The notes under the pieces were generated by a model that was given only the letters and a program-made list of their open reading frames with translations, did no database searches and was not told the DNA's origin. This document shows positions 9,317-55,048 of a stretch of 55,215 bases of DNA, piece by piece. Every line of letters begins with the position of its first letter. Position 1 is the stretch's first letter. The stretch spans positions 1 to 55,215 of IMG/VR virus record IMGVR_UViG_3300044699_000026, one strand, 5' to 3'. The DNA is from a virus. A program made the translations under genes and the position numbers.

Positions 9317-9328
9317 AGAGGTGGCGCC

Positions 9329-11666: not shown

Positions 11667-11669
11667 GCT

Positions 11670-33318: not shown

Positions 33319-33341
33319 TCCAGCTTACCACACGTTACCAC
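33319..33341 (-). promoter_or_regulatory. leftward promoter/operator motif, copy 1
   Basis: Read leftward, GTGGTAACGTGTGGTAAGCT. Two GTGGTAA units lie 10 bp apart, the second forming a TAAGCT -10-like box. TTGACA lies 19 bp upstream of that box, at 33347-33352. The downstream ATG 33287 is 34 bp away. Confidence 0.65.
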
Positions 33342-33389
33342 ATCGATGTCAAGTAACACGGCGTTCCCCTCACCCCGCCTGCAGTGACT

Positions 33390-33409
33390 CACTTACCACA
33401 CTTTGCCAC
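33390..33409 (-). promoter_or_regulatory. leftward promoter/operator motif, copy 2
   Basis: Read leftward, GTGGCAAAGTGTGGTAAGTG. It has the same spacing as copy 1, 68 bp further upstream, and ends 10 bp before the rightward gene at 33419. It could drive the longer form of the 33045 gene from GTG 33359, or repress the rightward gene by covering its ribosome site. Confidence 0.55.
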
Positions 33410-33418
33410 GGAGGTGCC

Positions 33419-33691
33419 ATGGTCCAGACCGGCGGTAAGGCTCGGCATCCCATTGATACCGAGCGTTTACATCTCTACTGGACTGCCGGCCCCGGCCTGG
33501 CCAAGTGGGCAGGCTCACCGCACCCCTGGACCACGCTGCACCGGCTTCTGTCCAAGTACCTCAGCGGACATGAGCTCGACGCCACCACGAGCAAATGGCA
33601 CTTCGAGGTCTTCCACCAGCACACCGGATCGGATCTCTACCGTCTACAGCACGGCGGCAAGATCAGAGGCAAGAGGATCGGACCGGGATAG
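33419..33691 (+). CDS. conserved actinophage small protein
   Basis: 90 residues, intact, the only rightward gene between 28.6 and 44.5 kb. Contains HLYWTAGPGLAKWAGSPHPW and ends GGKIRGKRIGPG. The block KWA-SPHPW-LHR is one I associate with a widespread small actinophage protein of unknown role. ATG 33419 has GGAGG 6 bp upstream, directly beside motif copy 2. It converges with the gene at 33709. Confidence 0.7.
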   Translation: MVQTGGKARHPIDTERLHLYWTAGPGLAKWAGSPHPWTTLHRLLSKYLSGHELDATTSKWHFEVFHQHTGSDLYRLQHGGKIRGKRIGPG

Positions 33692-33708
33692 GTAGGCGGA
33701 CGGCAGGT

Positions 33709-33972
33709 TCACGGGTTCACCACTTCACGATGGGTCACCTGTACGAACTGTCGCTCGCCGGCAGCGAGGTCGGCATAGGTGGTCACCTCGATCATCTCTC
33801 CGGTCGTTGCCGGACCATTCATGTAGAGCTCGACACGAAGATGACGCGGCTTGCCGAGCGCGGCCCAGTAGGTCGTGTCCATCTGCACGGCGTAGATCAC
33901 CTGACCGTGGCTGTCCTTGACGACGAACTGGACACCGGGCGCGACTGCCTCTTCCGACATCGTTGCGATCAT
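33709..33972 (-). CDS. 87-residue hypothetical protein
   Basis: Intact. MIATMSEEAVAPGVQFVVKD is followed by GQVIYAVQMDTTYWAALGKP and RHLRVELYMNGPATTGEMIE. It looks like a small beta-sheet protein. ATG 33972 has GGAAGGGG 7 bp before it. A second Met at residue 5 could also serve. It is the last gene of the oxygenase-glycosyltransferase operon. No family recognised. Confidence 0.65.
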   Translation of the reverse strand: MIATMSEEAVAPGVQFVVKDSHGQVIYAVQMDTTYWAALGKPRHLRVELYMNGPATTGEMIEVTTYADLAAGERQFVQVTHREVVNP

Positions 33973-33986
33973 CCTGGTTCCCCTTC

Positions 33987-34611
33987 CTACTGATGCCAGA
34001 CGGTGGACTGGTCGGCGGAATATCCGGCCGGCGGGTCCTCGGTGTAGAAGTAGGCGGCGATCGAGCGACGGGCTCGATGCGTCGCATGCGGATGTCCGTG
34101 CCAAGAGTGGTCGGAGGTCTCGAACACGACGGTCCGGTTGAACTCCGGCGCTACGTCGACCACCTTGCCGGCGCCGTTCCACAGCTCAAGATGACCGCCG
34201 TCGTCCTGCCAGTCCTGGTTCAGGTAGATGAGCAGGTTCAGCCGGCGGTACCGCTGGGTGTCCGGCGAGCGGGAGAAGTCGGTGTGGATGTTCAGGTAGC
34301 CGCCCGGCTCGATTAGGTGGTACCCACCGCCGACCGTCTCCATCGACAGGTTGCCGATACCGAAGACCTCTTCCAGGATCGGCCCGCGGGACTTGATCTC
34401 ATCGAACAGCACATGGGTGCCCGGACCCCACAGTGCGCGCGGTCCCTCCAGTTTGCGCTCGTTTCCGTCCGCGTAGGACCGCCACCCCGGAAGGGCGGGG
34501 TCGGGGAACTCGTCACGCACGACACGTAGGAGGTGCGGATTCCACCAGTCGTCCACTACGAAGTGCGGGAAACGGCTCGGGTGCTACCGCCGGTACCGTC
34601 AGCGCGGTCAT
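33987..34611 (-). CDS. 2OG-Fe(II) oxygenase, frame broken near 34572
   Basis: About 208 residues. From ATG 34611: MTALTVPAVAPEPFP, then one base skipped and HFVVDDWWNPHLLRVVRDEF. PFPHFVVDDW is the classic N-terminus of phage prolyl-4-hydroxylase-like oxygenases. The catalytic set is visible: His and Asp in NIHTDFSRS, the distal His in HSWHGHPHA, and Arg in RRSIAAYFYTE for 2-oxoglutarate. The enzyme would hydroxylate a protein, nucleotide or sugar. It is adjacent to a glycosyltransferase, which suggests joint modification of one substrate. Confidence 0.8.
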
Positions 34612-34730
34612 GCTGCCCGTCCGTTGTCCCACTCGGTTCCGCATCGTTCACATCTGCCGCGTTGCGCGCGGTGTATGAAGGCGCCGCAGATAGGACACTG
34701 CGGTGTTGACGGATGCTGCCGTGCGGTCAC
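34608..34730 (-). CDS. 40-residue zinc-ribbon protein
   Basis: GTG 34730 overlaps the glycosyltransferase stop, and its own stop overlaps the oxygenase start. CPICGAFIHRAQRGRCERCG gives two CxxC pairs 12 residues apart, a minimal zinc ribbon. Being coupled to both enzymes on either side, it may assist their complex, or bind nucleic acid. Confidence 0.65.
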   Translation of the reverse strand: MTARQHPSTPQCPICGAFIHRAQRGRCERCGTEWDNGRAA

Positions 34731-35401
34731 GAGTACTTCTCGCGTCGCTCGTTCCACAACTTCGCGTCGGCGTCGACACGTGACTCTCCGAGTCGGTAGA
34801 CGGCGTCGTCCTTGGCGAGGCTCCATGCCGGATGGAGATGCTCCACCAGCGAGACCCTCACCGATATGAACGTGCGCCGCTGCTTGGCCACAGTCACGAT
34901 CTCGTCGTCCACGTACCAGTGCCCGTACCCCTCGTGGGCGACGACACCGGGACCGTCCCAGGACGCGCCCCGCTCGTCCACGTAGGAGCGACGGACCAGC
35001 ATGTGGGTGGCGTGCTCGCCGGTCACCACACGGGAGTTGTGCATGTCGTTGGTGCCGATGACGTCGTAGCCGGCGCGTGTCGCGGCCTGTGCGTAGTCGA
35101 GCCAATCCCGATAGAACTTCACGTCGTCACCGGTAAGGAACAGCCAGGGCTCCTCGGTGTTCTCGTAGCCGAAGTTGACCTTCTCGGCGAATGTGCCCGC
35201 CCCGCCTCGATGTTGCGACGGGAAATTGAGGACCTCGGCGCCTGCGTCGGACCAGGCGTTGGCGGTGGCGTCGTCCTCCTCGTCGGCCACGGCGTAGACG
35301 GTGGCCGTCTCAGCCGCACCGGAGGAATCGAAGCTGTCCATGAACGGAGCCGCGTTATCCGGCCGGCCCAGGACCGGAACAATGACCGCTGTATTCTCCA
35401 T
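34727..35401 (-). CDS. glycosyltransferase, GT-A fold (family 2-like)
   Basis: 224 residues, intact. MENTAVIVPVLGRPDNAAPF is the nucleotide-sugar binding start of GT-A enzymes, and WLFLTGDDVKFYRDWLDYA carries the DxD-like metal motif (GDD). VVAHEGYGHWYVDDEIVTVA matches the acceptor-side acid region. It would transfer a sugar to DNA, protein or cell wall. Start RBS AGAAGGGGAGCGC. Operon order: this, a zinc ribbon, then a 2OG oxygenase. Confidence 0.85.
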   Translation of the reverse strand: MENTAVIVPVLGRPDNAAPFMDSFDSSGAAETATVYAVADEEDDATANAWSDAGAEVLNFPSQHRGGAGTFAEKVNFGYENTEEPWLFLTGDDVKFYRDWLDYAQAATRAGYDVIGTNDMHNSRVVTGEHATHMLVRRSYVDERGASWDGPGVVAHEGYGHWYVDDEIVTVAKQRRTFISVRVSLVEHLHPAWSLAKDDAVYRLGESRVDADAKLWNERREKYS

Positions 35402-35426
35402 GCGCTCCCCTTCTGAATGAGGTTCA

Positions 35427-35491
35427 GGTGGTCCGGGCTGTCACTGGTAGTTGACTTTGCCACCAGCGATCCTCCGTTGACCCGGACCACC
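35427..35491 (-). other. long inverted repeat between operons
   Basis: GGTGGTCCGGG at 35427-35437 pairs perfectly with CCCGGACCACC at 35481-35491 across a 43-nt loop. It lies between the primase-helicase and the glycosyltransferase. It could be an attenuator or a weak terminator; there is no U-tract. Confidence 0.5.
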
Positions 35492-35509
35492 CGGTGTACC
35501 ACGTTATCG

Positions 35510-37450
35510 TCAGTTTCCCTTCCAGACGTCCGGGTTGTGTTCCGCGCACCGAGCCCCGTTCACGGCGTCCACGGTCAACGCCGTCCGGCCGCAGATCGCG
35601 CACTCGGTGCTCGTCGTATCGATTTGCTGTGCCACCTTACCACGAGGTTCGCCTTCCTCACCGGCGCGGTCGGGGAACTTGATGACGTTGTCGGCCACAT
35701 CTCCGAAGACGTAGTGTCCCTGCCCTTGCGGATGCAGGCCCCACATGGTGTCCCTGGCGCCGCTGCCGCCAGGAGGGTTGATCTTGTAGAGGAAGCCGTC
35801 GCGGGCATTGCGCAGCGTGTGCTCCTTGAACCCCGCCTCGTTGCCCAGCTTTACGATCTCGGCCCAGCGCAGCAGCTTCGATGAGCTCGCCTCGATGATC
35901 TCGCGCAGGAAGGCACGCTCCTGCGAGCGGGCCATCGGGTCGTGCTTGAGCAAGCTGTCCGCGCTGTGCGGCACGGGAAGGGTCTCGAACTCGATGTGCG
36001 GAACGGCAGTGGGCGAGGCGGCGACCATCTTGTAGCCCAGCGTCGTCGCACGCGCCGTGAGGTTGTTCTTCGCCACCGCCAGGCAGTAGCGGTCCTCCAT
36101 CTCCTCGGCCTCGGGATGGCGGCCGGTCTGGAGCACTGACCGGGCCTGGCCTATGAAGCCGATCGAGCCACCGCCCTTGTGGATGGCTCGGCCACTGTCG
36201 GATTTCGTGAAGTGACGAACCGCGATCACCGTCAGGTCGTCCTCCTCGGCCATCGAGGACATCGGCCCGAGAATCATCCGGACGTGATGGTCGGAGTAGG
36301 AATTGACGTCCGTGCCGCCGAGATAGGCCATGATCGGATCGATCACCAGCACCGACGCTCCGTGTACTTGAAGGTCATTGCGCAACGTGGGCAGCTCCGA
36401 CAACGAGTAAGGCACCAGGCCATCCTTGGTCGGCACACCCTGCATGCGGATCACCCGACCGAGATCCGCGCCCGCCGCAATCAGACGTGGCACCACGACC
36501 GCGGGCCAATGGTCCTCCTCGGACAGCATCGCCACCGTCACCGGTTCGCCGCCGATCTCGTGACCCGGCAGCGGGCGGCCCGTGGTGAGGCGCCCGATCA
36601 GGTCGATGATCAAGGTCGATTTCCCGGTCCCCGGATCACCCTCCAGGAGGGTGAGCATCCCGACCGGAATCCTCCGGTCCCACAACCACTGGACCTTCTC
36701 CGGTCGGTAGTCCTTCGCCATCGTCGTCAGCCCCAACACTTCGCTCATCGGCTTCAGGTCACGCAGCGACCCACCGGCCTCGTACAGGTCCGTGACGTCC
36801 TTGCAGCCGGCCCTGCCCGGCTCCATCAAGGTGACCTTGTTCGCCGCACCCTCCAAGGCGTCACGGACCCGCTTGGCCAGCTTGCGGCCGGCCTTGTCGG
36901 CATCGGCGACGATGACCACGTCGAGGTCACGGAGCGCCTCGCCGTACTGCGGCAGCCACTCCTTCGCGGCACCCCCTTGTGCGGTGGTGGCCACAATGCC
37001 GTTGGCACGGAGGGTCTCCACGTCCCTCTCGCCCTCGACCAGGACGACCGGCCATCCGTTCTCGCGTGCCACAGCGATACCGGCCAGGTTGTAGAGCACC
37101 ATGGCCTCGGTCGGTGGCGCCTGGCGCCGACCGTCCGGCTGGCGGATGCGGAAGTCCTTCGGCTCCCATCGCTCGACCACGTAGCGCACGTCGCCGTCCG
37201 GGCCGTGGTAGGCGTATTCGGCCACGACGTGCGGCTCGCCGAACAGGGTCGACATCGGGATTTCCAGCGCGGCCAGGATGTCGTGGACAGAGCACCCGGC
37301 ATGGCAGTGCAGAAGCACCCTGCCGTCGCGGCCCTCACTGATACTGAGCGAGGGGCGGCTGTCGTCATGCGCGGGGCACAGCGCCATCCATCCGGTGCGT
37401 GAACGCTTGACTACCTGAACGCGCTCGGCGAACTCTTCCGCACGGCTCAC
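35510..37450 (-). CDS. bifunctional primase-helicase (RepA/DnaB-type)
   Basis: 646 residues, intact, the central replication protein. N-terminal zinc module: CPAHDDSRPSLSI (25-37) and HCHAGC (48-53). TOPRIM-like centre: VLVEGERD (136-143) and VADAD (181-185). C-terminal RecA-type ATPase: Walker A GDPGTGKS (271-278) and Walker B VLVIDP (367-372), followed by VRHFTKS. The far C-terminus holds a further CAICG with CAEH zinc pair. It would prime and unwind at the fork, with host or other polymerase supplying synthesis. Starts at GTG 37450. Confidence 0.9.
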   Translation of the reverse strand: MSRAEEFAERVQVVKRSRTGWMALCPAHDDSRPSLSISEGRDGRVLLHCHAGCSVHDILAALEIPMSTLFGEPHVVAEYAYHGPDGDVRYVVERWEPKDFRIRQPDGRRQAPPTEAMVLYNLAGIAVARENGWPVVLVEGERDVETLRANGIVATTAQGGAAKEWLPQYGEALRDLDVVIVADADKAGRKLAKRVRDALEGAANKVTLMEPGRAGCKDVTDLYEAGGSLRDLKPMSEVLGLTTMAKDYRPEKVQWLWDRRIPVGMLTLLEGDPGTGKSTLIIDLIGRLTTGRPLPGHEIGGEPVTVAMLSEEDHWPAVVVPRLIAAGADLGRVIRMQGVPTKDGLVPYSLSELPTLRNDLQVHGASVLVIDPIMAYLGGTDVNSYSDHHVRMILGPMSSMAEEDDLTVIAVRHFTKSDSGRAIHKGGGSIGFIGQARSVLQTGRHPEAEEMEDRYCLAVAKNNLTARATTLGYKMVAASPTAVPHIEFETLPVPHSADSLLKHDPMARSQERAFLREIIEASSSKLLRWAEIVKLGNEAGFKEHTLRNARDGFLYKINPPGGSGARDTMWGLHPQGQGHYVFGDVADNVIKFPDRAGEEGEPRGKVAQQIDTTSTECAICGRTALTVDAVNGARCAEHNPDVWKGN

Positions 37451-37498
37451 CCACCGACCCCTTCCCCGTAGCAGGGTTGACTTCGCTTACTGACGAGA

Positions 37499-37537
37499 GC
37501 GGGGCCGGAGGACCACGCACTAATCCTCCGGCCCCGC
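37499..37537 (-). terminator. strong hairpin between SSB-like and primase genes
   Basis: A 14-bp perfect stem, GCGGGGCCGGAGGA with TCCTCCGGCCCCGC, 11-nt loop. It probably stops most leftward transcription from the SSB-like gene, so the primase would need its own promoter or read-through. Confidence 0.75.
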
Positions 37538-37621
37538 TGTCCTTACGTCCGGGCGGTCCCCTATGCCTCCGAGAGTGGATACACGACGGCAAGCCGCCCG
37601 GGCGTCAGGACGATTCCGGAC

Positions 37622-38167
37622 CTAGAACGGCGGTGCGTCGTTCAGCGGCGGTGCCGCGTAGCCCCCGGTCGGCGGAATAGCCGCCTGCTGGCCCTGAGCG
37701 GGCTGCTGGGTCAACGGATCGACCGGAGCGGCAGCAGGAGGCGGGGTAGTGGCCTGAGGGGCCACTCCGGGCCGCAGGGAGAACGTCCCGGCGCTACCCA
37801 GGAACGGGTCCGCGGCGATGGCGGCCTTGAACAGGTCGATCACGGACTGGTCGCCCGGCTGAGGCTCACCCAGGATGTAGCTGATGCCGTTGCCGCTGGG
37901 CTCCGGAGTGACCCGGCCGTAGTAGATCTGACCGTTGCCGGCGACCTGACCGAACTGACGGCCGAGCCGTGACGTGTTCACCGACTCGCCGAAGAACTTG
38001 CCCGCCTCGGGGCCGCTGAGCACCCACACGTCGAGCCAGACGGCGAAGGCCGGAGCCTCACCTTGGCGAGCGAACTCGCCGGTACGGAGAGCACGGAGTG
38101 CGATCAGCTCCTTGGTGTTGGCCGTAGGCCGGAAGCTGGCCATGCTCGGAGGTGCTGGGAGGGTCAT
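37622..38167 (-). CDS. single-stranded-DNA-binding-like protein
   Basis: 181 residues. A structured N-terminal part (FAVWLDVWVLSGPEAGKFFG, GQIYYGRVTPEPSGNGISYI) is followed by a Pro/Gln/Ala-rich linker from about residue 130 and ends NDAPPF. A flexible linker with a short acidic-aromatic tip like DDIPF is the hallmark of SSB proteins, which use it to recruit partners. Placement beside the primase-helicase agrees. The OB fold itself is inferred, not shown. Confidence 0.6.
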   Translation of the reverse strand: MTLPAPPSMASFRPTANTKELIALRALRTGEFARQGEAPAFAVWLDVWVLSGPEAGKFFGESVNTSRLGRQFGQVAGNGQIYYGRVTPEPSGNGISYILGEPQPGDQSVIDLFKAAIAADPFLGSAGTFSLRPGVAPQATTPPPAAAPVDPLTQQPAQGQQAAIPPTGGYAAPPLNDAPPF

Positions 38168-38436
38168 GCGTCTTCCCTTCTGTCGGTCTTTCCTTCTTGC
38201 TCGGCCGGGAGGAAGTCTCCCGTTATGGCGATCACGTCGCCACGCTTGAGTCGAGGGTTGCAGCCCTCGAAGTCGAAGATCAAGGTCGCCCCGATCAGTC
38301 CGTCCGGCAGATCAGGCATGCCGAAGGTGCCCCCATCGGCACCGAGCTGGACGACGTACCGGTCCGGACCCGATTCCTGGAAATGCGGATGCGACTCCTC
38401 GACGGCGAGGAAGACGGTGGCACTCCTACGGTTCAT
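38164..38436 (-). CDS. 90-residue protein coupled to the SSB-like gene
   Basis: MNRRSATVFLAVEESHPHFQ, then DRYVVQLGADGGTFGMPDLP and GDVIAITGDFLPAEQEGKTD. Beta-rich with a charged tail. ATG 38436 has GAAGGGGAGC 5 bp before it and the stop overlaps the SSB-like start by 4 bp, so the two are probably made together. Function unknown. Confidence 0.65.
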   Translation of the reverse strand: MNRRSATVFLAVEESHPHFQESGPDRYVVQLGADGGTFGMPDLPDGLIGATLIFDFEGCNPRLKRGDVIAITGDFLPAEQEGKTDRREDA

Positions 38437-38458
38437 GCAGCTCCCCTTCATTACTGCG

Positions 38459-38501
38459 CCCCCCAGCCGAACAGCAGGCGAATGGTGAAACGGCTGGGGG
38501 G
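38459..38501 (-). terminator. hairpin between leftward genes
   Basis: An 11-bp stem, CCCCCCAGCCG with CGGCTGGGGGG, 21-nt loop. It lies between the promoter-like motif at 38547 and the gene starting at 38436, so it may act as an attenuator on that leader rather than as a simple terminator. Confidence 0.6.
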
Positions 38502-38546
38502 CCTGGTCAGCCTAGCCCTCCGTGAGCACGGTGGCCAGCGCTCCAG

Positions 38547-38566
38547 AGCTTGCCACACGTTGCCAC
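38547..38566 (-). promoter_or_regulatory. leftward promoter/operator motif, copy 3
   Basis: Read leftward, GTGGCAACGTGTGGCAAGCT, the same as copy 1 except for C in place of T in each unit. The -10-like box is CAAGCT, and TTGCCA lies 18 bp upstream. The downstream gene starts 110 bp away, beyond a hairpin. Confidence 0.55.
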
Positions 38567-38576
38567 TGATGGCAAC

Positions 38577-38807
38577 CTAAACGTTCGGCCCGACCGCGCT
38601 TCTCGACGGCTCCCACGTCTCGACCTCGGACGTGGTGCCGAGATCGGCGCGAAGGCCGTAGGACTTCGGGTTGGCGTAGATGCACGCCAGCGCCAGCTCG
38701 GCCTTACTGGTGTAGATAGACGGGCACTTGGCGTAGATGCCCTCGCCAGCCGGAGCGTCTGCCTTGGCCATGGCTTCGGCCAGCTTCAGTGCACGCGCGT
38801 CACCCAC
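38577..38807 (-). CDS. 76-residue hypothetical protein
   Basis: GTG 38807 is chosen because it lies 3 bp after the preceding stop and starts the conserved-looking GDARALKLAEAMAKADAPAG. The middle has SKAELALACIYANPKSYGL. A small helical protein. It ends just before motif copy 3. No family known. Confidence 0.6.
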   Translation of the reverse strand: MGDARALKLAEAMAKADAPAGEGIYAKCPSIYTSKAELALACIYANPKSYGLRADLGTTSEVETWEPSRSAVGPNV

Positions 38808-38809
38808 TA

Positions 38810-38992
38810 TCAGACCTTCCCTTCCAGGACCCTGGTTATGGTTTCTACCTCTTGGCGCCAGACGTCCACTCGGCGCTGCCACTTGTCAACCTCGCCTTGA
38901 TCCACAGGCCGCTTTTCCCTAGCCCGAGCGAGCCAATACTCGGCATTACCAAGCCGTTGGTTAGCGCCGTTATATGAACGCGGGTCATCCAT
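38810..38992 (-). CDS. 60-residue helical protein
   Basis: MDDPRSYNGANQRLGNAEYW, then LARAREKRPVDQGEVDKWQR and VETITRVLEGKV: charged helices of coiled-coil type. It overlaps the upstream gene by 8 bp. RBS is weak (AGAAGAAGC). Function unknown. Confidence 0.6.
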   Translation of the reverse strand: MDDPRSYNGANQRLGNAEYWLARAREKRPVDQGEVDKWQRRVDVWRQEVETITRVLEGKV

Positions 38993-39164
38993 AGTGCTTC
39001 TTCTCCATGTGCCGGTCGAGCGCCTCTTCGGCATGGGTCGTGTCCAGGAACGGCAGCGTCCGGTACCGGCAGACCTTGCACCGGCCGACCCAGCGCGGCC
39101 AGTTAGCCCACCAGCGCGTCCCATGTCGGTGCGACCACTCGATTCCGTCCTGCTCGACGGTCAT
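38985..39164 (-). CDS. 59-residue C2H2-like zinc protein
   Basis: ATG 39164 overlaps the nuclease stop. CKVCRYRTLP, then THAEEALDRHMEKKH gives a Cys-x-x-Cys ... His-x4-His pattern like a single zinc finger. The N-terminus is Trp/Arg-rich (HRHGTRWWANWPRWVGR). It may bind DNA beside the RecB-like nuclease. Confidence 0.6.
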   Translation of the reverse strand: MTVEQDGIEWSHRHGTRWWANWPRWVGRCKVCRYRTLPFLDTTHAEEALDRHMEKKHYG

Positions 39165-39916
39165 CGTCCTTGCACCTTCCCGGCGGCGCAGCCGCTCTCG
39201 GTCGTGGGGAAGCCCGGTCGGTACCACGGGCAGTACGGGCAGAGATGCCCGACGTCGTCGTGGATGGCGGCGGCCTCGGCCTCACCGCGGGCCACCAGTG
39301 ACAGGTTCTCGTAGCGGTCCAGCGCGGTGTTGGCCCGCTCGGAATCAGGCTGCACGACGAAGGCGCTCACGTCGGCCATGTCCTTCGCGCCCCTCGGGAT
39401 GAAGACCAGAGCGCAATCCTGGACATCCTCACCGGCCGCACGCAGACCCTCGACGTAGATCGAGATCTGAGTCAGGTAACCCTGTGGCAGCCCTTCCCGG
39501 CGATAGCGGCGCACTAGGTCGGAACGCTGGGTGGACTTCCAGTCGATGATCCTCTTCTTGTAGCGGTCGAACAGGTCGATCGAGCCGCGCACACCGCGGT
39601 AGGTCACCGGGAATTCGACCAGATAACGGCCACCGGGAAGCGTCCGGAAGTATTCGGCCATGTAGTAGTGGATGCCGTGGCCCTCGGTCGTCTTCATCGG
39701 GTCGGGCAGGTTCACCGGAGGCGTCCCGCGTAGCGCGTAGACCAGCTTGCGGTCACACGGATGACCGAGGTCGGACGGGCCGAGTTCACGCTGCACCGAG
39801 CGGGCATGGGACAGGCTCGCGGCCACCATGTGCTCACGCACCCACTCGGCCAGCACGATGTCGGCCATGCCGACCTCAGGGGGAGGCTGAGGCGGCGGCG
39901 GTGGTGGAAGAGTCAC
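39161..39916 (-). CDS. RecB/Cas4-like PD-(D/E)XK exonuclease
   Basis: 251 residues. GSIDLFDRYKKRIIDWKST (about residues 111-129) has the Asp ... Asp-x-Lys nuclease core, with an upstream His/Glu-containing EGHGIHYYMAEYF. The C-terminal CPYCPWY with a later Cys, plus an earlier Cys in HPCDRK, suggests the four-Cys iron-sulphur cluster of Cas4/AddB-type nucleases. It probably trims DNA ends in recombination or replication. The Pro-rich start PPPPPPQPPPE is unusual and could mean the true start is ATG at residue 17. Confidence 0.78.
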   Translation of the reverse strand: MTLPPPPPPQPPPEVGMADIVLAEWVREHMVAASLSHARSVQRELGPSDLGHPCDRKLVYALRGTPPVNLPDPMKTTEGHGIHYYMAEYFRTLPGGRYLVEFPVTYRGVRGSIDLFDRYKKRIIDWKSTQRSDLVRRYRREGLPQGYLTQISIYVEGLRAAGEDVQDCALVFIPRGAKDMADVSAFVVQPDSERANTALDRYENLSLVARGEAEAAAIHDDVGHLCPYCPWYRPGFPTTESGCAAGKVQGR

Positions 39917-40221
39917 AAGCCGACCCTTTCACAGACGTAGTCCAGCTTCTCTTCCAGTGAGGCAACCGGATCGAACCCGAGCGAGGCGAGTGCGACCAGC
40001 GTGGTCACCGCAATATCGGCCAGCTCGTGCCCGACATCCGAGAGCTCGGCAGTAACTCCTTTACGCGGGTTCTGGCCGACGTAGCCGATCCACGCGGCGG
40101 CAGCCTCACCGAACTCCTCACCGATCTTCAGAATGCGCAAGCCCTGTTCGGTCTCGTCGCAGCCGTTGTGCTCATCGAGATGCTGGACGATCTTCTTGAT
40201 CGCCAGCTCCATTGCGTTCAC
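39913..40221 (-). CDS. mazG: MazG-like nucleotide pyrophosphohydrolase
   Basis: 102 residues from GTG 40221 (coupled to the upstream stop), or 99 from ATG 40212. All-helical, with ILKIGEEFGEAAAAWIG giving the EExxE-type metal site and ELSDVGHELADIAVTTLVAL the second acidic helix (ExxD). This fits the all-alpha NTP pyrophosphatase fold that hydrolyses (d)NTPs or alarmones. Family assignment is good; substrate unknown. Confidence 0.78.
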   Translation of the reverse strand: MNAMELAIKKIVQHLDEHNGCDETEQGLRILKIGEEFGEAAAAWIGYVGQNPRKGVTAELSDVGHELADIAVTTLVALASLGFDPVASLEEKLDYVCERVGL

Positions 40222-40484
40222 GGGCTCACTGCCAGGAGCGCCTTGTCGAACTTGTCGAGCACCATGTCCAGCGTCGTCTTTGTGAAGACCGGCCAACCAC
40301 CGAGATCGGCCGGGGCGAAGATGGCCTGGTTGAAGTCCTTGCGGCGGGCATCCCGCGTGAGGCTGTCCACCGTCAGTCGTCGCTCGAACTCGGCGCGCAA
40401 TGCTTCGTAGAACTCGTCGCGTTGCTGTTCCTCGCTGGCCGTGACCGCTGGTGTCTTGAGGTAGTTGATGATCACGGTGACCAT
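40218..40484 (-). CDS. 88-residue protein with QQRDEF motif
   Basis: MVTVIINYLKTPAVTASEEQ, then QRDEFYEALRAEFERRLTVD. The block LKT-AVT-S-EQQRDEF is shared with the protein at 42294-42539, and the DNA of that block is similar, so the two genes arose by partial duplication. The rest of each protein differs. Helical. Function unknown. Confidence 0.65.
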   Translation of the reverse strand: MVTVIINYLKTPAVTASEEQQRDEFYEALRAEFERRLTVDSLTRDARRKDFNQAIFAPADLGGWPVFTKTTLDMVLDKFDKALLAVSP

Positions 40485-40768
40485 CCACGAATGAAATCAG
40501 CCGCGTGCAGGATAGCGTCGCCGTACACACCGTTTGCCTGTTCGCCGACGCGCTGGCGATACTCAACTTGCCGTAGCGGTGCATTGGCCAGTGCGTCGGC
40601 TATCTGGTTCTTGACGTAGTCAGCGACCAGCGGGGCAACCTTCTCCACGGCAACCTTGGTCTCCTCGTACACCGTCGTGTAGTCGGGGTCGATGTAGAGA
40701 AGTGTCTGCACGGCCTTCCAGGCGATGGCCACCCATTCGTCAACCACCCGGTAGGGAATGTCGGTCAT
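40472..40768 (-). CDS. 98-residue helical protein
   Basis: MTDIPYRVVDEWVAIAWKAV, DYTTVYEETKVAVEKVAPLV, then NQIADALANAPLRQVEYRQR and GDAILHAADFIRGW. NQIADAL and GDAI recall the broken gene at 29745-30170. It overlaps both neighbours (13 and 4 bp). Function unknown. Confidence 0.65.
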   Translation of the reverse strand: MTDIPYRVVDEWVAIAWKAVQTLLYIDPDYTTVYEETKVAVEKVAPLVADYVKNQIADALANAPLRQVEYRQRVGEQANGVYGDAILHAADFIRGWSP

Positions 40769-41076
40769 GGCTTTGCCACAACCACGCTCACCCGGTGCCC
40801 GCCGGCCGTGAGCTGGAGCGAGGCGGCGTAGATGTCCGGCCAGGTCTTACGCAGCCACTGGCTGTTCACACGTTCCGAGCCGTTGCTCCAGGAGTGGCGC
40901 AGCAACGGCTGACCGCCGACCGTGATCACGTCGCCGTCCTTGATCAAGGGGATGAGCTGCTCGCGAAGTTCCTCCTTGCGTGCGTTCAGCTCATCAAGGT
41001 CGGCGCACACCTGGACGTAGTCGTAAACCAGCTGTGCGTGGTCATCGAGCGGAAGCTCGACAGGGTCCCTGGTCAT
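40765..41076 (-). CDS. 103-residue protein, coiled-coil N-terminus
   Basis: LVYDYVQVCADLDELNARKE with ELREQLIPLIKDGD forms a coiled coil, followed by a beta end (VITVGGQPLLRHSWSNGSER, GGHRVSVVVAKP). A layout of a helix pair then a small sheet is seen in some phage recombination accessory proteins, but I cannot assign it. ATG 41076 overlaps the upstream stop. Confidence 0.62.
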   Translation of the reverse strand: MTRDPVELPLDDHAQLVYDYVQVCADLDELNARKEELREQLIPLIKDGDVITVGGQPLLRHSWSNGSERVNSQWLRKTWPDIYAASLQLTAGGHRVSVVVAKP

Positions 41077-41285
41077 GTCCCCTCCTGCTCGGTGACGTCC
41101 TGTACGTGGAGTTGGTGGACGGAGTCACGGGCTGTCTGATGCGGCATAACTCGTGACCCCGCCACGTCTTGTAGGTTCCGCCAGAAGTCGACGAACTGGT
41201 CCTCCCTCAGCCCGCCGTACTGTTCACCCCAGCCCGGCTCCCATGGCGGCGCGAGGTGCTTCGGCGGGTATCGGTCGGCGGTCAC
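41073..41285 (-). CDS. 70-residue Trp/Pro-rich protein
   Basis: MTADRYPPKHLAPPWEPGWG, then REDQFVDFWRNLQDVAGSRV. No recognised domain. GTG 41285 overlaps the stop of the zinc protein upstream; the stop overlaps the next gene start. Function unknown. Confidence 0.58.
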   Translation of the reverse strand: MTADRYPPKHLAPPWEPGWGEQYGGLREDQFVDFWRNLQDVAGSRVMPHQTARDSVHQLHVQDVTEQEGT

Positions 41286-42539: not shown

Positions 42540-42700
42540 GACTTCAACACCGCGTCATAGGCGGCCAGTGCGGCCTTTACAGCCACCGGGTACGTCTCGC
42601 GTGCCGGATCGGTGCGGGGCAGTCGCGCGGTCTGTATGCGCTGTTCGTATGCCGCTTCAGCGGCCAGGATCTGCTTCTCGCGCTTGGTAAGCTCTTTCAT
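42536..42700 (-). CDS. 54-residue helical protein
   Basis: MKELTKREKQILAAEAAYEQ, then PVAVKAALAAYDAVLKS. Two amphipathic helices. ATG 42700 overlaps the upstream stop and GTG-coupled downstream. Too short for family assignment. Confidence 0.58.
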   Translation of the reverse strand: MKELTKREKQILAAEAAYEQRIQTARLPRTDPARETYPVAVKAALAAYDAVLKS

Positions 42701-43022: not shown

Positions 43023-43024
43023 GG

Positions 43025-50263: not shown

Positions 50264-50698
50264 GCCGTCATCCCCTCGGTGTCCTCCCAGACCTTCACGT
50301 AGCACACGGTGTAGTCGTCCCAGGCCGGATGGCCGCTCTCGCCGTGGTACAGAAACACGTCGGAGTCGCGCACGTCCCCGGTGTCCCTGCTCCCCGCTCG
50401 GATTGAGGTACACGTACCGTGGCGGTAGGTTCGGTGCGGTCACCTTGAAGCCCACCGCCCAGCCGTTAGTCCAAGGCTCGAACACGGCACCCTCGTAGGA
50501 CGTGACCGTGTTGACCTCTAGCGCGCTAATTGCCGACACCCCTTCCGCGTCGTCGGTCGCGACCTCTGGCCAGCGTTCCAACGCCATGCGTAGCGCGGTT
50601 TCTAGTGCGTATATGCGGAACTCATCCAGACTTCCGTCCGTTGCGCTGTCTCGCGCGATGTTCGCGTACATCTGCATTTCGTCGGTAGTTGAGCTCAT
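50260..50698 (-). CDS. hypothetical protein, frame broken near 50385
   Basis: From ATG 50698: MSSTTDEMQMYANIARDSAT, ALETALRMALERWPEVATDD, FEPWTNGWAVGFKVTAPNLP and RYVYLNPSGE. One base later the other frame continues DVRDSDVFLYHGESGHPAWD and DYTVCYVKVWEDTEGMTA with TGA 50260-50262, exactly overlapping the next ATG. About 146 residues. One extra G in the GCGGGGAGCAGGG area would explain it. Family unknown. Confidence 0.6.
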
Positions 50699-50701
50699 GT
50701 C

Positions 50702-50887
50702 TCAGTCCTCTTCCTCTGGAAACTCGGGGACGCCTGCCCACTCCAGTAGCTCAACGTCGCCGGGGTCGATGTGGTCGGCCAGCGATTGCAGTTCGTATAG
50801 CTCGTCCCAGCTGATTCGTTCGGCGCGAATCTCGCTGCGTAGGTATTCCAGTCGTGCCTTGACGAGTTCTTGCTCCCATGTGCTCAT
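50702..50887 (-). CDS. 61-residue acidic helical protein
   Basis: MSTWEQELVKARLEYLRSEI and SWDELYELQSLADHIDPGDV, ending VPEFPEEED. ATG 50887 has CGAAGGGAACCGAAC in front, the shared leader of this region. Small anti-repressor-like or inhibitor-like acidic protein; no family evidence. Confidence 0.62.
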   Translation of the reverse strand: MSTWEQELVKARLEYLRSEIRAERISWDELYELQSLADHIDPGDVELLEWAGVPEFPEEED

Positions 50888-50919
50888 GTTCGGTTCCCTT
50901 CGATTGAGTAGCTGCGTAG

Positions 50920-51141
50920 CTACTCTGCTAGGACGTAATAGGCCACCGCGCCGAGCAGTGCGTCAAGATCCTCGCGTCGGCCATCTGCGGCATCGGCTGC
51001 GTATTGGTCGGCGGTGTACCAATCGCCGTTCTCGTTGGCCAGGTCGTAAAGCTCGGCTAGCTTCTCGGCGCGCGCCTGCTCGTCATCCTTGACGCGGTGG
51101 TATGTCTCGATCAGATCGTCCAGCGGCTTAGCTTCGCTCAT
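50920..51141 (-). CDS. 73-residue helical protein
   Basis: MSEAKPLDDLIETYHRVKDD, EQARAEKLAELYDLANENGD, then YTADQYAADAADG. ATG 51141 has the shared leader CGAAGGGGAACCGAAC and lies 30 bp downstream of the TAACAT box of motif copy 4. Function unknown. Confidence 0.65.
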   Translation of the reverse strand: MSEAKPLDDLIETYHRVKDDEQARAEKLAELYDLANENGDWYTADQYAADAADGRREDLDALLGAVAYYVLAE

Positions 51142-51171
51142 GTTCGGTTCCCCTTCGGTGTCGTATAGCTA

Positions 51172-51191
51172 ATGTTACCACACCTTACCAC
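51172..51191 (-). promoter_or_regulatory. leftward promoter/operator motif, copy 4
   Basis: Read leftward, GTGGTAAGGTGTGGTAACAT, with two GTGGTAA units 10 bp apart and TAACAT as a -10-like box 30 bp before ATG 51141. The TAA of that box is also the stop codon of the upstream gene. Confidence 0.65.
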
Positions 51192-51354
51192 GCACGGTAA
51201 GCTGCGGAGCTGGGTCAATAGCGGTAAGCGTGTCATCCGCCACCGGTCGGTCGAGGTAGCTGTCAAGCTCTTCGGTCAACGACGGTGGGCAGTCCAGCGC
51301 ATACCACAGTTTGCGGACGAGCTTGTCGATCTTCTGGTTGCGGGTCTGGGTCAT
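51175..51354 (-). CDS. 59-residue hypothetical protein
   Basis: ATG 51354 reads MTQTRNQKIDKLVRKLWYAL, DCPPSLTEELDSYLDRPVAD and ends QLTVRGKVW at TAA 51175-51177. RBS GAAAGGGAACCGAAC. Its last eight codons contain motif copy 4, so coding and regulatory sequence overlap. Family unknown. Confidence 0.6.
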   Translation of the reverse strand: MTQTRNQKIDKLVRKLWYALDCPPSLTEELDSYLDRPVADDTLTAIDPAPQLTVRGKVW

Positions 51355-51397
51355 GTTCGGTTCCCTTTCAGTGTTGTGTGGCTGCGTAGCTACTTAG

Positions 51398-51547
51398 CTA
51401 GCGCTGGTCTCGGATGCCTGAGCCGTTCCATAGCTCTCCATGACCTTCCGGTGGTGTGATCACCACTCGCTCGATCTCGTCCCGCGTTACGAGCGTCCGG
51501 CGCGATTCGCGCAACGTCGCTCCGGTTGCTTTCGCTCTAGTTGGCAT
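51398..51547 (-). CDS. 49-residue basic protein
   Basis: ATG 51547 reads MPTRAKATGATLRESRRTLV, TRDEIERVVITPPEGHGELW and ends GIRDQR at TAG 51398-51400. It overlaps the upstream stop by one base. The N-terminal half is Arg-rich. No family. Confidence 0.55.
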   Translation of the reverse strand: MPTRAKATGATLRESRRTLVTRDEIERVVITPPEGHGELWNGSGIRDQR

Positions 51548-52126
51548 CAGGCCAGCCGTCCGTCTGCCAGGAACTCGCGCCCGTTGGCCTCGATGTCCTC
51601 ACGTAGGGCGTCCTCTGAGTACATGTATTCGTACTCGGCTACGCCCGCGTGGATAGCGTCACGTAGAGCCTCATCAAGTGCGCCGAAGATTCTGCGATCT
51701 AGTGCCCACTCGCTTTCGTCGTCGTAAACGGTGAACGTACTCGATTCCGTTTCGACTGCGAGTGAGCGTCCGTGAGTGTTGGGGTTGCGTAAGTTCATGC
51801 GGACCACGTTGGGTGGCCAGGGTAAAGCTGGCGCGGTCTCCGGCGTGAGGTATCCGGCTACTTCGATTGTGTGGCGGTCAACATCCCATTCCGTGACCTC
51901 CAGCCCGTCGATGCCAGGGAAGTCACCTTCGCCGAAGGTGTCCCAACCGGGCGCGGCGAGCCTTTCCGCGAGTGTGTAGATTAATTGTCTCTTGGATTCG
52001 GTCAGTGTCGAAGCTGTCCCACCATTGCGCGCGTAGCTCGCGGTAATTGTCGATTGCCTCGGCTTGTGTCTCGTCATCTAGCTCATCGAGTCGGTACAGG
52101 TCGCGTGTCGTGGTTTCGACTCTCAT
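51547..52126 (-). CDS. conserved phage early protein, frame broken near 52010
   Basis: ATG 52126 gives LYRLDELDDETQAEAIDNYR, ELRAQWWDSFDT. The next frame continues ESKRQLIYTLAERLAAPGWD, then TEWDVDRHTIEVAGYLTPET, down to 51547. About 192 residues. The beginning ELDDETQAEAIDNYRE-WW resembles a widespread phage family (EL-EEAKEKAI-WYRE) of unknown function, which supports joining the two frames. Confidence 0.62.
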
Positions 52127-52596
52127 GCCTTGACCTCTTCCAATTCAGCTGAGTAGCTGTTAGCAGCCTTGTCCATGGCGCGCGCAGCTGCACGAGCCGA
52201 ACTGTGCTCGCCGAAGTCTCCGATGGTGTCGATGCTGTCGCTGTCGGCGTCCCATACGCGCACGGAATAGGTGCGTGTGTAGTCGTCCCAGTCGCTACGC
52301 TCGCTCGTCGTGAAGTAGAGCCGATGGCCAACGATGCGCCAGTGCGACAGGATGCGAGACGTAAAGAACCGTATGGAGTCGGCGTCAAAGAAGTGCGTGT
52401 CCGACACCTTCGGAATGTCGCTCGGCTCGTACACGTCATCGGTGCGCACGTAGGCGAACCCGTCCGACGCGCGGAGTCGCCACAGCTGGCGGTACTCGTC
52501 GGCCGCCTCTTCGGAATCAACTACCGTGCGGATACGCACGCGCATCCGATTGCTGTCGGTGTAGTGTCCCGTTGCTACCGTGATCTTGTTTCGCAT
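52123..52596 (-). CDS. 157-residue hypothetical protein
   Basis: MRNKITVATGHYTDSNRMRV, then LWRLRASDGFAYVRTDDVYE and HWRIVGHRLYFTTSERSDWD. Intact, mixed alpha/beta, acidic. It ends with a helix (ARAAARAMDKAANSYSAELE). The stop overlaps the next start by 4 bp. RBS GGAAGGGGA. Family unknown. Confidence 0.66.
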   Translation of the reverse strand: MRNKITVATGHYTDSNRMRVRIRTVVDSEEAADEYRQLWRLRASDGFAYVRTDDVYEPSDIPKVSDTHFFDADSIRFFTSRILSHWRIVGHRLYFTTSERSDWDDYTRTYSVRVWDADSDSIDTIGDFGEHSSARAAARAMDKAANSYSAELEEVKA

Positions 52597-52598
52597 AG

Positions 52599-52923
52599 CT
52601 AGTCCCCTTCCTTTGGGTCCCAGTAAGTCAAGGCTTCGCGCGAGCCCCCGAGCGTGCTACCGCAACCCTCGCAGCGCTGCCAGCTGAATGTCAGCCGTTC
52701 GCACTCGCAATCGGCTTCACCCGTCCATTGCCCGTTAGTGATGTTCGGGCACTCGGAGTCGTGCTCATTGGCCATGAGACCAGCTGTCAGTTCCCCTGGC
52801 CCGTCGATGAGACTCAAACGGTTCGCGGTCTGGTGGGTCTTCGGTCTCTTCGCGCACGCCATGGTGCGTTAGGTAGCAGTCGATGCACACCCAAAGGGTT
52901 TGGTAGTCGCGCGTAGTCGTCAT
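52599..52923 (-). CDS. zinc-ribbon early protein, frame broken near 52808
   Basis: ATG 52923 reads MTTTRDYQTLWVCIDCYLTH with HG, then EDPPDREP. The next frame continues LSLIDGPGELTAGLMANEHD, SECPNITNGQWTGEADCECE and FSWQRCEGCGSTLGGSREAL. About 107 residues. The joined pattern CIDCYLTHHG ... REPL-LI ... CEGCGS-L-G is a known actinobacterial and actinophage zinc protein, so the break is almost certainly an indel. Role unknown. Confidence 0.65.
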
Positions 52924-52925
52924 AG

Positions 52926-53297
52926 CTAGCTGTCCTCCGCTTCCCATACGTAAAGCCGCGAGTGCTCTGCTACGTCCAGCGGAAAAGTCTCCGACACGAG
53001 CGTGCGGAGAGTGTTTTCCCATAGATCAGGCTTGCCGCTGTGCAGCGGTGCCGACGCCCGTTCGGGATCGAAGTTCCGTGCGAGGTTAAGCAGGTCCTCG
53101 GAGAGAACGTGCGCCTTCCACGCGGCCTTGTAGTCCTCCGACTCCGCGTAGAGTCGTGCCGACTCTTCGGCCTGCTCGGAGTCCTCCAGTAGCTCGTTGT
53201 GGATCACCACAGCAGCGTCCGTGTAGGTCTCGAAACCCTCATCCGTCTCGTCTAGGTCCGGTCCGTATCCGGCGAGTCCATGTGCTACGTAGATCAT
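52926..53297 (-). CDS. 123-residue acidic protein
   Basis: MIYVAHGLAGYGPDLDETDE, then EDSEQAEESARLYAESEDYK and LRTLVSETFPLDVAEHSRLY. Very acidic and helical, intact. ATG 53297 follows CGAAGGGGACACAAGC. Could mimic DNA or inhibit a host protein, but that rests only on charge. Confidence 0.62.
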   Translation of the reverse strand: MIYVAHGLAGYGPDLDETDEGFETYTDAAVVIHNELLEDSEQAEESARLYAESEDYKAAWKAHVLSEDLLNLARNFDPERASAPLHSGKPDLWENTLRTLVSETFPLDVAEHSRLYVWEAEDS

Positions 53298-53317
53298 GCT
53301 TGTGTCCCCTTCGGTGT

Positions 53318-53349
53318 TGTGTAGCTGTGTAGCTGTGTAGCTGTGTAGC
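53318..53349 (-). repeat. octanucleotide tandem repeat
   Basis: Four perfect copies of TGTGTAGC in the spacer between two leftward genes, followed by a short GT run. The unit resembles the TAGCTACGCAGCTAC element in other spacers of this region. Confidence 0.85.
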
Positions 53350-53360
53350 GTGTGTGTGAG

Positions 53361-54037
53361 CTAGCTGACGGCCACTCCGGTTAACAGTTCCTTGCGAAGC
53401 AGTTTGCGCAGCGAGCGGGTAAGCAATGTGTCCACCTTGCCGCGTTGCGCTGCGCTTAGGATCATGGCCATGATGACGTCAGGGAAGCGGTAGCCAGCGG
53501 CCTTGATTGCGCGATAGGCCAGGCTGGCATGGAAGTAGTCTTCCCCTACGTGGCCGGCTAGGCAGTCCGTTCCCATGCCGAACTTGCAGCCCGGCAATCT
53601 CCGCCGCTGTTCTCCCATGCGGACACGATGCGCTCGGGCGTGATCCCCTTGACGAATCTGTCGATGGCCTTGCGCGTGGCAGCATTGCGCTGGTCCTCAG
53701 CCGCAACCGCGTCGACGTCCACGCCAGCTATGACGAGACCGTCGCGGACCGTCATGCCGTCCATGTATGGCGTCGTGCCGGCATACCATCGACCGCGCTC
53801 GGAATGGATGCGCAGCGGCCCGTAGCTGTTCATACGATCCTTTGTGGTCACAGTGAACCATCCGCCCGTCTCATAGCTGACTGACCCGTCCGGGTGAAAG
53901 GTGAGTATGTCGGTGTCGTGCAACCGGACCGCGATAGCTTCACCACGCCGTTCCGCATAGGTGTTGTGCGTGAGCTTGCGCCGATCTTTGTTCCGGCCCG
54001 TCAGCTTCGCGTTTAGGCTTTCGTAAGTCTCGCTCAT
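53361..54037 (-). CDS. conserved phage protein, frame broken near 53592
   Basis: ATG 54037 gives SETYESLNAKLTGRNKDRRK, LTHNTYAERRGEAIAVRLHD, TDILTFHPDGSVSYETGGWF and RIVSAWENSGGD. The next frame continues CKFGMGTDCLAGHVGEDYFH, ASLAYRAIKAAGYRFPDVIM to 53361. About 225 residues. The layout of an N-terminal YERRGDAIAVRLH-TD region and a C-terminal Cys/His part with EDY-VPSL-like sequence is one I associate with an actinobacteriophage early family; function unknown. Confidence 0.65.
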
Positions 54038-54162
54038 GTTGTTTGGTTCCCCTTCGGTGTGCGCTTGCGTTCGGTCACGATGTTGAATGCGAGAATCCGC
54101 AGTCCGGCTAGTGCCAGGCTTGCGCCAGCGATTGCCAGCGCGTCCGCGATTAGTGCGATCAT
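54034..54162 (-). CDS. 42-residue membrane protein
   Basis: ATG 54162 gives MIALIADALAIAGASLALAG and LRILAFNIVTERKRTPKGNQ. One membrane helix with a basic cytoplasmic tail. Overlaps both neighbours by 4 bp; its last codons encode the ribosome site of the next gene. Confidence 0.58.
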   Translation of the reverse strand: MIALIADALAIAGASLALAGLRILAFNIVTERKRTPKGNQTT

Positions 54163-54251
54163 CGTGCGTACTCCACGAACGTCGACGACTTGACCTCATC
54201 GACAAGCTCGGATACGGGCCAGAATGCTTCGAAACCAGAATCCAGCGTCAC
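54159..54251 (-). CDS. 30-residue peptide
   Basis: GTG 54251 gives MTLDSGFEAFWPVSELVDEV and KSSTFVEYAR. It overlaps the stop of the gene before and the start of the gene after by 4 bp each. The double overlap is the main evidence. It looks like a short strand-and-helix peptide. Confidence 0.5.
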   Translation of the reverse strand: MTLDSGFEAFWPVSELVDEVKSSTFVEYAR

Positions 54252-54433
54252 CCGTAGAGTTGGTCACGGATATCGTCATCGGGCCCGGCAAAGTTTCCGT
54301 TGCGGTCCCCGATGCTGCGTGCCGTTCCTTGCACAACGTCATCGTTCACCAATCGTGCGACATGCTGGCCTTTGTGTGCCATCGTTACGATGGTTGCGAG
54401 TGCCGTGACCTCGCTTGCCGAGAGCGTGCGCAT
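54248..54433 (-). CDS. 61-residue hypothetical protein
   Basis: ATG 54433 gives MRTLSASEVTALATIVTMAH and KGQHVARLVNDDVVQGTARS. RBS GGAAGGGGAAGC. The frame is open upstream but without a plausible start. Helical. Function unknown. Confidence 0.6.
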   Translation of the reverse strand: MRTLSASEVTALATIVTMAHKGQHVARLVNDDVVQGTARSIGDRNGNFAGPDDDIRDQLYG

Positions 54434-54516
54434 AGTGCTTCCCCTTCCGTGGTGGCCTGTCCTGGCCATGGCGTGCCATCCTGCGAGAGAATGGCCACCA
54501 GGGTTAGGCAGTGTCA

Positions 54517-54606
54517 CTACTGGCGCCAGAAATAGAACCCAACGAGCCAACGGGTGACCCAATATGCCAGCGTCGGATCCGTGCTCCACTGGACTAGAGC
54601 GCTCAT
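54517..54606 (-). CDS. 29-residue Trp-rich membrane-type peptide
   Basis: ATG 54606 gives MSALVQWSTDPTLAYWVTRW and LVGFYFWRQ. Five Trp/Tyr plus a hydrophobic end suggest a membrane-associated peptide. GGAAGGGGACCGAC lies directly before the start, which is the main support. Confidence 0.48.
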   Translation of the reverse strand: MSALVQWSTDPTLAYWVTRWLVGFYFWRQ

Positions 54607-54634
54607 GTCGGTCCCCTTCCGTGCGCTTGGCCTG

Positions 54635-54991
54635 TCAGTCCTTGCGGATGGAGTAGGACACGAGTCGCGAACCGTTGACCGTTAGTGTGCTGTGATCATG
54701 GACAGCGCGGGACAAGGTCCTGGCAACGGTCGCCGCTCCATCGGGTCCGGACAGCAGACTGGTGAAGCGTCGGCCATCCGAGTAGACCGTGTAGAGCACC
54801 AGCGTGCGGTCCGTGGTGTCCGTGGTGTCCACTGTGACGGCCCGGAAGTCGTGGCCGTTAGCGTCATGGTGCCAGCCGTCGTGCCCCACTGGGCGAAGGC
54901 ATAGACCGTAGGCGGCAATGTCTGCCTTGCATGGTGAGCCTTGGCCGTAGTCAGCCGGCGCTGGTGCCTTGCGGTGTTCGCCTAGTGACAT
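54635..54991 (-). CDS. 118-residue hypothetical protein, first gene of the right leftward operon
   Basis: MSLGEHRKAPAPADYGQGSP, then CKADIAAYGLCLRPVGHDGW with HHD, followed by beta sequence (TLVLYTVYSDGRRFTSLLSG). The CLRPVGHDGWHH block resembles the Cys/His motif at 42015. ATG 54991 has GGAAGGGGATCG upstream and is 37 bp from the TAACGT box of motif copy 5. Intact. Function unknown. Confidence 0.66.
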   Translation of the reverse strand: MSLGEHRKAPAPADYGQGSPCKADIAAYGLCLRPVGHDGWHHDANGHDFRAVTVDTTDTTDRTLVLYTVYSDGRRFTSLLSGPDGAATVARTLSRAVHDHSTLTVNGSRLVSYSIRKD

Positions 54992-55028
54992 GGTGTCGAT
55001 CCCCTTCCGTGGTGGCCTGATGAGTGCA

Positions 55029-55048
55029 ACGTTACCACACATTGCCAC
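55029..55048 (-). promoter_or_regulatory. leftward promoter/operator motif, copy 5
   Basis: Read leftward, GTGGCAATGTGTGGTAACGT, at the head of the right leftward operon. TTGACA lies at 55065-55060. The motif overlaps a 13-bp inverted repeat, CACATTGCCACGC (55038-55050) with GCGTGGCAATGTG (55066-55078), which would place a second, oppositely oriented binding site over the -35 region. Confidence 0.65.

Follow-up and report, generated by a model that had tools for sequence, protein, structure and literature searches.

The genome and its tandem motif

The virus record IMGVR_UViG_3300044699_000026 (55,215 bases, approximately 64% G+C) was analysed over its whole length, referred to here as the window. 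Its left half contains long rightward open reading frames (ORFs) and its right half mostly leftward ones. Family matches include terminase, portal, capsid, tape measure and endolysin, together with a primase-helicase, an exonuclease and a RusA-like resolvase encoded in the right arm; searches for the tyrosine and serine integrase families gave no match in the genome. The terminase is at most 57% identical to phage records, the top matches being prophages of Mycobacterium abscessus. Judging from these family matches, the virus is most likely a phage (siphovirus) of actinobacteria, with its presumed early leftward transcription units in the right arm. It is in this arm that a 20-bp tandem motif, GTGGYAANGTGTGGYAANNT, is repeated at several places.

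The window contains five copies of this 20-mer (Table 1), four of them exact and one (33390) with a single mismatch, all on the minus strand and at the places where the original prediction had put them. Each copy consists of two GTGGYAA units arranged head to tail, with a 10-bp spacing in 5/5 copies. Positions G1, T2, G3, G4, A6 and A7 of the unit are invariant in all ten units, with C or T at position 5; the first unit has G9 and T10 fixed as well, and four of the five second units keep T10. A search of the window allowing up to three mismatches gave five matches (0.22 expected from dinucleotide shuffles). As the consensus was built from the same five copies, a leave-one-out design is a fairer test: the held-out copies scored 21.4-29.5 bits and the best place outside the set 10.3-12.2 bits. 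The scan with a position matrix that had been suggested thus recovers all the copies well above every other place in the window.

Outside this genome, no exact copy of the 20-mer was found in 396 genomes of one actinobacterial order or in 394 of a class (the samples overlap), none at one mismatch in 9 genomes and none at up to three mismatches in 11 terminase-related viral records. The 17-mer core of the motif appears in 56 viral stretches, with one exact match in each; we judged many of these to be chance matches, and several to lie in runs common to related contigs. With site 1 as query, all that blastn gave was weak matches, in phages infecting other bacteria. Literature searches for TGTGGCAAAG and for GTGGTAA combined with promoter and phage gave nothing relevant among the matches listed. 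The set of tandem-repeat sites is real and, among the sequences searched for several copies, is known so far from this phage alone.

Related sequences were sought as well. Megablast of positions 1-12000 and 31000-55215 against phage records gave no relative (very near records may be left out of this comparison), and two contigs (L062 and L063) with ca. 80-88% DNA identity cover the late region only. Queries with the primase, the exonuclease and the HTH_17 protein described below confirmed no relative in viral contigs. The two-heptad pattern was not found at up to two mismatches in Gordonia phage BBQValindra or in the portion covered of Microbacterium phage Pepe25, and a further sequence (L116) has one two-mismatch match. 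Across 39 genome terminase loci (flanks of up to 10 kb) the closest matches, five in 4 loci, had two mismatches, and the reversed control gave 12.

Genes and promoter-like elements at the sites

The five sites are spread over 22 kb, the centres of neighbouring ones being 68 bp, 5.2, 12.6 and 3.9 kb apart. Going by the chosen ORFs, four are intergenic and one, as had been noticed before, is at the 3' end of a gene: site 4 overlaps the end of gene 51175-51354 and encodes its last residues. Sites 1, 2, 4 and 5 all precede, at 31 to 38 bp, a start codon with a Shine-Dalgarno-like leader (Table 1). Only 1.2% of right-arm positions fall 30-38 bp (a post hoc window) before a start preceded by such a leader, the 33 starts counted being our own pattern list and not curated annotation. 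At 33322, 51172 and 55029 the second unit provides the hexamers TAAGCT, TAACAT and TAACGT with a start codon 35, 31 and 38 bp further on, in agreement with the original prediction, and the other two copies (TAAGTG, CAAGCT) are without a full TANNNT.

The GTG behind site 2 is in frame with the ATG behind site 1; if this GTG is the true start, site 1 falls inside that ORF. Site 2 precedes the rightward ORF starting at 33419 by 10 bp as well, and since this gene is faced by the leftward DUF7246 gene, the gap holding sites 1 and 2 is divergent. The ORF behind site 3, without a family match, is followed by 37622-38167 and then by the primase-helicase. Between site 3 and this ORF (38437-38546) an inverted repeat, CCCCCCAGCCG ... 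CGGCTGGGGGG, can be seen by eye and is a possible leader hairpin.

Table 1. Motif copies, flanking elements and genes in the right arm of the genome
Feature	Coordinates	Strand	Remarks
Site 1, GTGGTAACGT GTGGTAAGCT	33322..33341	-	35 bp before ATG 33287
Site 2, GTGGCAAAGT GTGGTAAGTG	33390..33409	-	31 bp before GTG 33359
Site 3, GTGGCAACGT GTGGCAAGCT	38547..38566	-	111 bp before ATG 38436
Site 4, GTGGTAAGGT GTGGTAACAT	51172..51191	-	31 bp before ATG 51141
Site 5, GTGGCAATGT GTGGTAACGT	55029..55048	-	38 bp before ATG 54991; near right end of record
TTGACA upstream of site 1	33347..33352	-	19 bp to TAAGCT
TTGACC upstream of site 4	51213..51218	-	35 bp to TAACAT
TTGACA upstream of site 5	55060..55065	-	25 bp to TAACGT
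Perfect inverted copy (10/10) of first unit of site 5	55068..55077	+	TTGACA in between
Half site GTGGTAAGGT	43956..43965	-	Upstream of gene starting at 43806
Half site GTGGCAAAGT	35454..35463	-	Between 35510-37450 and 34727-35401; may be chance
Half site GTGGTAAGGT	35634..35643	-	In 3' end of primase-helicase gene; may be chance
Gene behind site 1, DUF7246	33045..33287	-	PF23904, E 3.3e-14
Rightward gene	33419..33691	+	phrog_6439, E 5.2e-12
Primase-helicase, CHC2-toprim-AAA_25	35510..37450	-	Family matches
90-aa ORF behind site 3	38164..38436	-	Followed by 37622-38167 and 35510-37450
73-aa ORF behind site 4	50920..51141	-	
118-aa ORF behind site 5	54635..54991	-	
Zinc-ribbon-like DNA-binding protein	44582..45208	+	phrog_1568 'DNA binding protein', E 5.8e-17; second candidate binder
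66-aa HTH_17 / MerR-like, excisionase-like winged-helix protein	45201..45401	+	First candidate binder

Upstream of the sites two kinds of element are found more often than elsewhere. TTGAC[AC] lies within 40 bp of three of the five copies (base rate 2.4%), and the inverted half-site TTRCC within the same distance of four (base rate 5.6%). The TTGACA or TTGCCA boxes reported earlier for three copies are in place (TTGACA at 33322 and 55029, TTGCCA at 38547), and there is in addition a TTGACC at 51172. A weak -35-like hexamer at 17 bp is found at sites 3 (TTGCCA) and 4 (TTACCG) and at no others, and the combination of TTGACA and TANNNT at 15-20 bp at site 1 alone, where the distance is 19 bp. With TTGAC[AC] 19, 35 and 25 bp away from the second-unit hexamer, a standard promoter using this hexamer as its -10 is therefore not consistent across the sites.

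Lone GTGGYAANGT units outside the five copies number four (0.61 expected from base composition), and the half motif originally described at 43956 is present there. The best sigma-70-like match of the right arm (44335-44364, leftward; TTGACA, 18, TACGAT) is located in the gap that separates the leftward gene at 43806 from the rightward operon at 44582.

Probable operators at leftward promoters and a candidate binding protein

The copies are specific, have one orientation and mostly a similar distance to a start codon, and carry promoter-like and inverted half-site elements upstream; for these reasons a promoter/operator is the best reading. We consider it probable that the five copies are operators and overlap the promoters from which leftward early units of this actinobacterial siphovirus are transcribed. 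Host RNA polymerase would start transcription close to the motif, and an extended -10 may be provided by the second unit (TGGTAANNT) of sites 1, 4 and 5. A phage protein would bind both GTGGYAA units head to tail, one helix turn apart, and such binding could block or tune initiation at several transcription units together. Repression seems likelier than activation because the units cover the expected -10/start region. If the TTGAC[AC] boxes are -35 boxes, the motif would cover part of this region in all three cases, something that suits an operator. Thus, of the promoter/operator system first proposed, the operator part is favoured by the specificity, orientation, start distance and flanks of the copies, and a simple core promoter is disfavoured by the spacing.

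The candidate partners are encoded in a small rightward operon in which the zinc-ribbon-like protein comes first, followed by the helix-turn-helix (HTH) protein at 45201-45401 and two short ORFs. The latter protein, already pointed out by the original prediction, was confirmed on the plus strand as the single match of a six-frame HTH_17 search (PF12728, E 1.1e-6, 25.4 bits, just below the curated cut-off of 27). Within PHROGs it matches the MerR-like phrog_2474 (E 2e-6) and, more weakly, phrog_57 (terminase small subunit) and phrog_66 and phrog_2907 (excisionase). A single-sequence fold model was poor (predicted local distance difference test score, pLDDT, of 67). The first protein of the operon has weak zinc-ribbon Pfam matches besides its PHROGs assignment, and the minus-strand ORF 44765-45202, antisense to it, was discarded, the plus-strand gene being taken as real. 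A second HTH protein, claimed at 32749, was not supported: no meaningful match came from Pfam, tblastn, NCBIfam or PHROGs, and the minus-strand ORF 32749-33048, which looks winged-helix/HTH_17-like by eye if two frames are joined, was rejected for its lack of database support. We tentatively name the 45201-45401 protein as the most likely candidate binder of the sites since the layout of the repeats and the type of protein match.

Small proteins of this type are known to bind direct repeats. Operators of recombination directionality factors (RDFs), such as Apl of phage 186, are direct repeats about one turn apart, and Apl represses promoters; Apl, Xis and Cox all bind tandem repeats with this spacing, and in phage 186 seven operators lie between pR and pL, with another five at attP (PMC7498355). 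As in the Apl, P2 Cox and lambda Xis systems, the repeats here are about one turn apart and a small winged-helix protein of the excisionase/MerR kind is encoded by the phage; in contrast to the 186 operators, the units come in pairs at five places spread over 22 kb, and the integrase searches were negative. The MerR-like BldC binds head-to-tail direct repeats at Streptomyces promoters (PMC5859096). The likeness extends to the head-to-tail repeats at (predicted) promoters, the small MerR-like protein and the actinobacterial setting, but the BldC repeat is AATTXXXX(C) and the unit of the sites predicted here is GTGGYAANNT. It is conceivable, if doubtful, that the early region of this phage, for which no integrase was matched, is under the global control of an excisionase/BldC-like winged-helix protein acting through dispersed head-to-tail two-unit operators at several right-arm promoters. 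Actinobacteriophages use several kinds of dispersed regulatory repeats, such as stoperators and start-associated sequences (SAS), and dispersed direct-repeat operators would, if true, be a third type beside stoperators and the clustered Apl/Cox switches. The site set and its candidate MerR/Xis-like partner would then offer a compact and testable case of how a protein of the RDF kind could come to regulate many promoters, and might provide a short operator for actinobacterial genetics.

Several observations weigh against the operator reading. After site 3 the next start with a Shine-Dalgarno-like leader is 111 bp away, and the distance windows were picked after the data had been seen. Direct half sites (GGYAA) are not enriched upstream (1/5, base rate 7.0%), and downstream TTRCC and TTGAC[AC] are at 0/5 each, which is chance level at the same base rates. 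A sigma-70 scan with 16-18 bp spacing lists none of the five sites, and the -35/-10 spacing is inconsistent among them. In an any-word control, 20 of 150 shuffles gave a dispersed 10-bp-tandem family of at least five members, and other words form tandem families in the window itself, with 6 members (8 bp) and 10 members (9 bp). Since such families are so found, five members alone are little proof; the any-word tandem statistics did not discriminate and were given up as evidence, and the case is left to specificity and place. No relatives covering the early region were found among the searches made. As to the binder, the nearest solved sequences to the 45201-45401 protein are phage terminase small subunits (E 0.026-0.065), HTH_17 relatives also act in packaging or excision, and the strongest half match in front of the HTH operon (44557-44566) scores 11 bits.

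Alternative explanations

The sites had also been compared to the stoperators of phage L5. A monomeric repressor with two DNA-binding domains would then read the asymmetric 20-mer, stopping initiation at site 5 (Pleft-like) and elongation elsewhere, as in Cluster A phages; we find this unlikely. The layout is much like that of L5 and MabJ (PMC9283540, PMC9934374): asymmetric repeats tied to the direction of transcription (5/5 minus), mostly intergenic, one of them near the right end beside a TTGACA. The putative Pleft of a MabJ prophage is found near cos (PMC9934374). However, there are five copies here versus more than 20 in L5 and 14 in the MabJ prophage prophiT49-3 (PMC9283540, PMC9934374), and the MabJ operator over Pleft is reversed relative to the rest (PMC9934374), whereas all five copies here share one direction. 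The 20-mer is a direct repeat that differs from the L5 13-mer in sequence and length, and the similar start distance at 4/5 copies suits initiation control better. No repressor of the Cluster A kind was named among the ca. 45 window ORFs (part of all ORFs) scanned with Pfam and/or PHROGs, and neither a six-frame HTH_3 search nor the integrase searches gave a match.

The L5 13-mer itself (GGTGGMTGTCAAG) has three one-mismatch matches in the window (0.11 expected; 0/100 shuffles with three) and five at two mismatches (2.83 expected). One of the three (55054-55066) is beside site 5 and overlaps its TTGACA, another is inside the coding gene 51175-51354, and the third (42575-42587) has the opposite orientation; the L5 sequence was accordingly rejected as the motif. 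The comparison with stoperators therefore stands for the layout and fails for the sequence.

We regard as quite unlikely that the motif is purely a core-promoter element, read by the host RNA polymerase as a duplicated extended -10 (TGNTANNNT) or by a phage-modified polymerase, without a separate binder. The extended -10 consensus, TGN[TC]ANNNT, is fitted by all five first units and 4/5 second units, and a start codon follows 31-38 bp on at 4/5 copies. Yet G4 and A7 are invariant in 10/10 units, beyond what an extended -10 needs, and we know of no role for a 10-bp tandem in a core promoter, so that these features would be left unexplained. The inverted half-sites upstream suggest a separate binder, and a Sigma70_r4_2 search gave no match. 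The core promoter raised as one option by the original prediction fits poorly by itself, given the overall spacing, the presence of weak -35-like hexamers at 17 bp at 38547 and 51172 only, and the two copies without TANNNT.

Replication iterons, i.e., units bound by the primase-helicase or an initiator, with the nearness to start codons being secondary, are very improbable. The phage does encode a primase-helicase, and sites 1-2 and 3 flank this gene and its neighbours. In other viral contigs of five lineages, moreover, 10-bp GTGGYAA tandems are found near the 3' ends of primase-helicase genes; the same end here has lone half units and no array, and the double units are dispersed over 22 kb, unclustered, and tied to orientation and start codons. 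Tandem triples of GTGGYAA at 10 bp appear in 41 viral stretches and the reversed pattern in 17. Out of 91 loci with a double or triple pattern, 15 encode a relative of five query primase-helicases, four of which were picked from those same loci. The tandem is within ca. 230 bp of the 3' end of the gene in 13 of these 15 (five lineages) and kilobases away in the other two (L016 and L084), compared with 0/17 control loci; the lineages were noticed post hoc, the proteins scanned were chosen by size and the controls were unmatched for length or origin. As an observation in its own right, GTGGYAA tandems from inside to ca. 230 bp past the 3' end of D5, VapE and AAA_25 primase-helicase genes are possible origin iterons, for example at L014 3593, L050 1250, L036 3050 and 3346, L017 3898 and L082 2632, with further cases by primase-helicase genes in L057, L060, L040, L086, L089, L091, L093 and L098.

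We hold it to be very unlikely that the direct repeat acts in the leader at the RNA level, as the target of a regulator of translation or another RNA-binding regulator. This would agree with the motif being on the strand of the genes at a similar start distance in 4/5 copies. However, with the TTGAC[AC] boxes as -35 boxes, the motif would extend across the -10/start region and only part of it would enter the transcript.

Start-associated and other repeats

The SAS and extended SAS (ESAS) of Cluster K phages are likewise repeated, with one prevailing orientation and a link to gene starts. Unlike the motif described here, found 31-38 bp before start codons, SAS are typically 3-7 bp before the start and are thought to be translational. 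The Cluster K SAS (GGGATAGGAGCCC) has one two-mismatch match in the window (282-294), against 1.4 expected by chance, and identity with it was rejected. This match, GACATAGGAGCCC, is right before the first rightward gene and is also found in L063 (ca. 2195-2207).

Two further repeats were seen. A start-associated leader, CACCGAAGGGGAACC, has 13 matches with up to three mismatches (2.2 expected), 11 of them on the minus strand in the 33-55 kb part of the window (e.g., 33293, 49481, 51146, 54045 and 54997). The second, GTAGCTACGCAGCTA-like, has 15 matches, many of them overlapping, at up to three mismatches (0.77 expected), located at 46922-47186, 50832-50930, 51378-51401 and 53322-53344, with one at 23622. 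Some of these copies are just upstream of GAAGGGGAAC leaders; the repeat is perhaps another start-associated or regulatory element.

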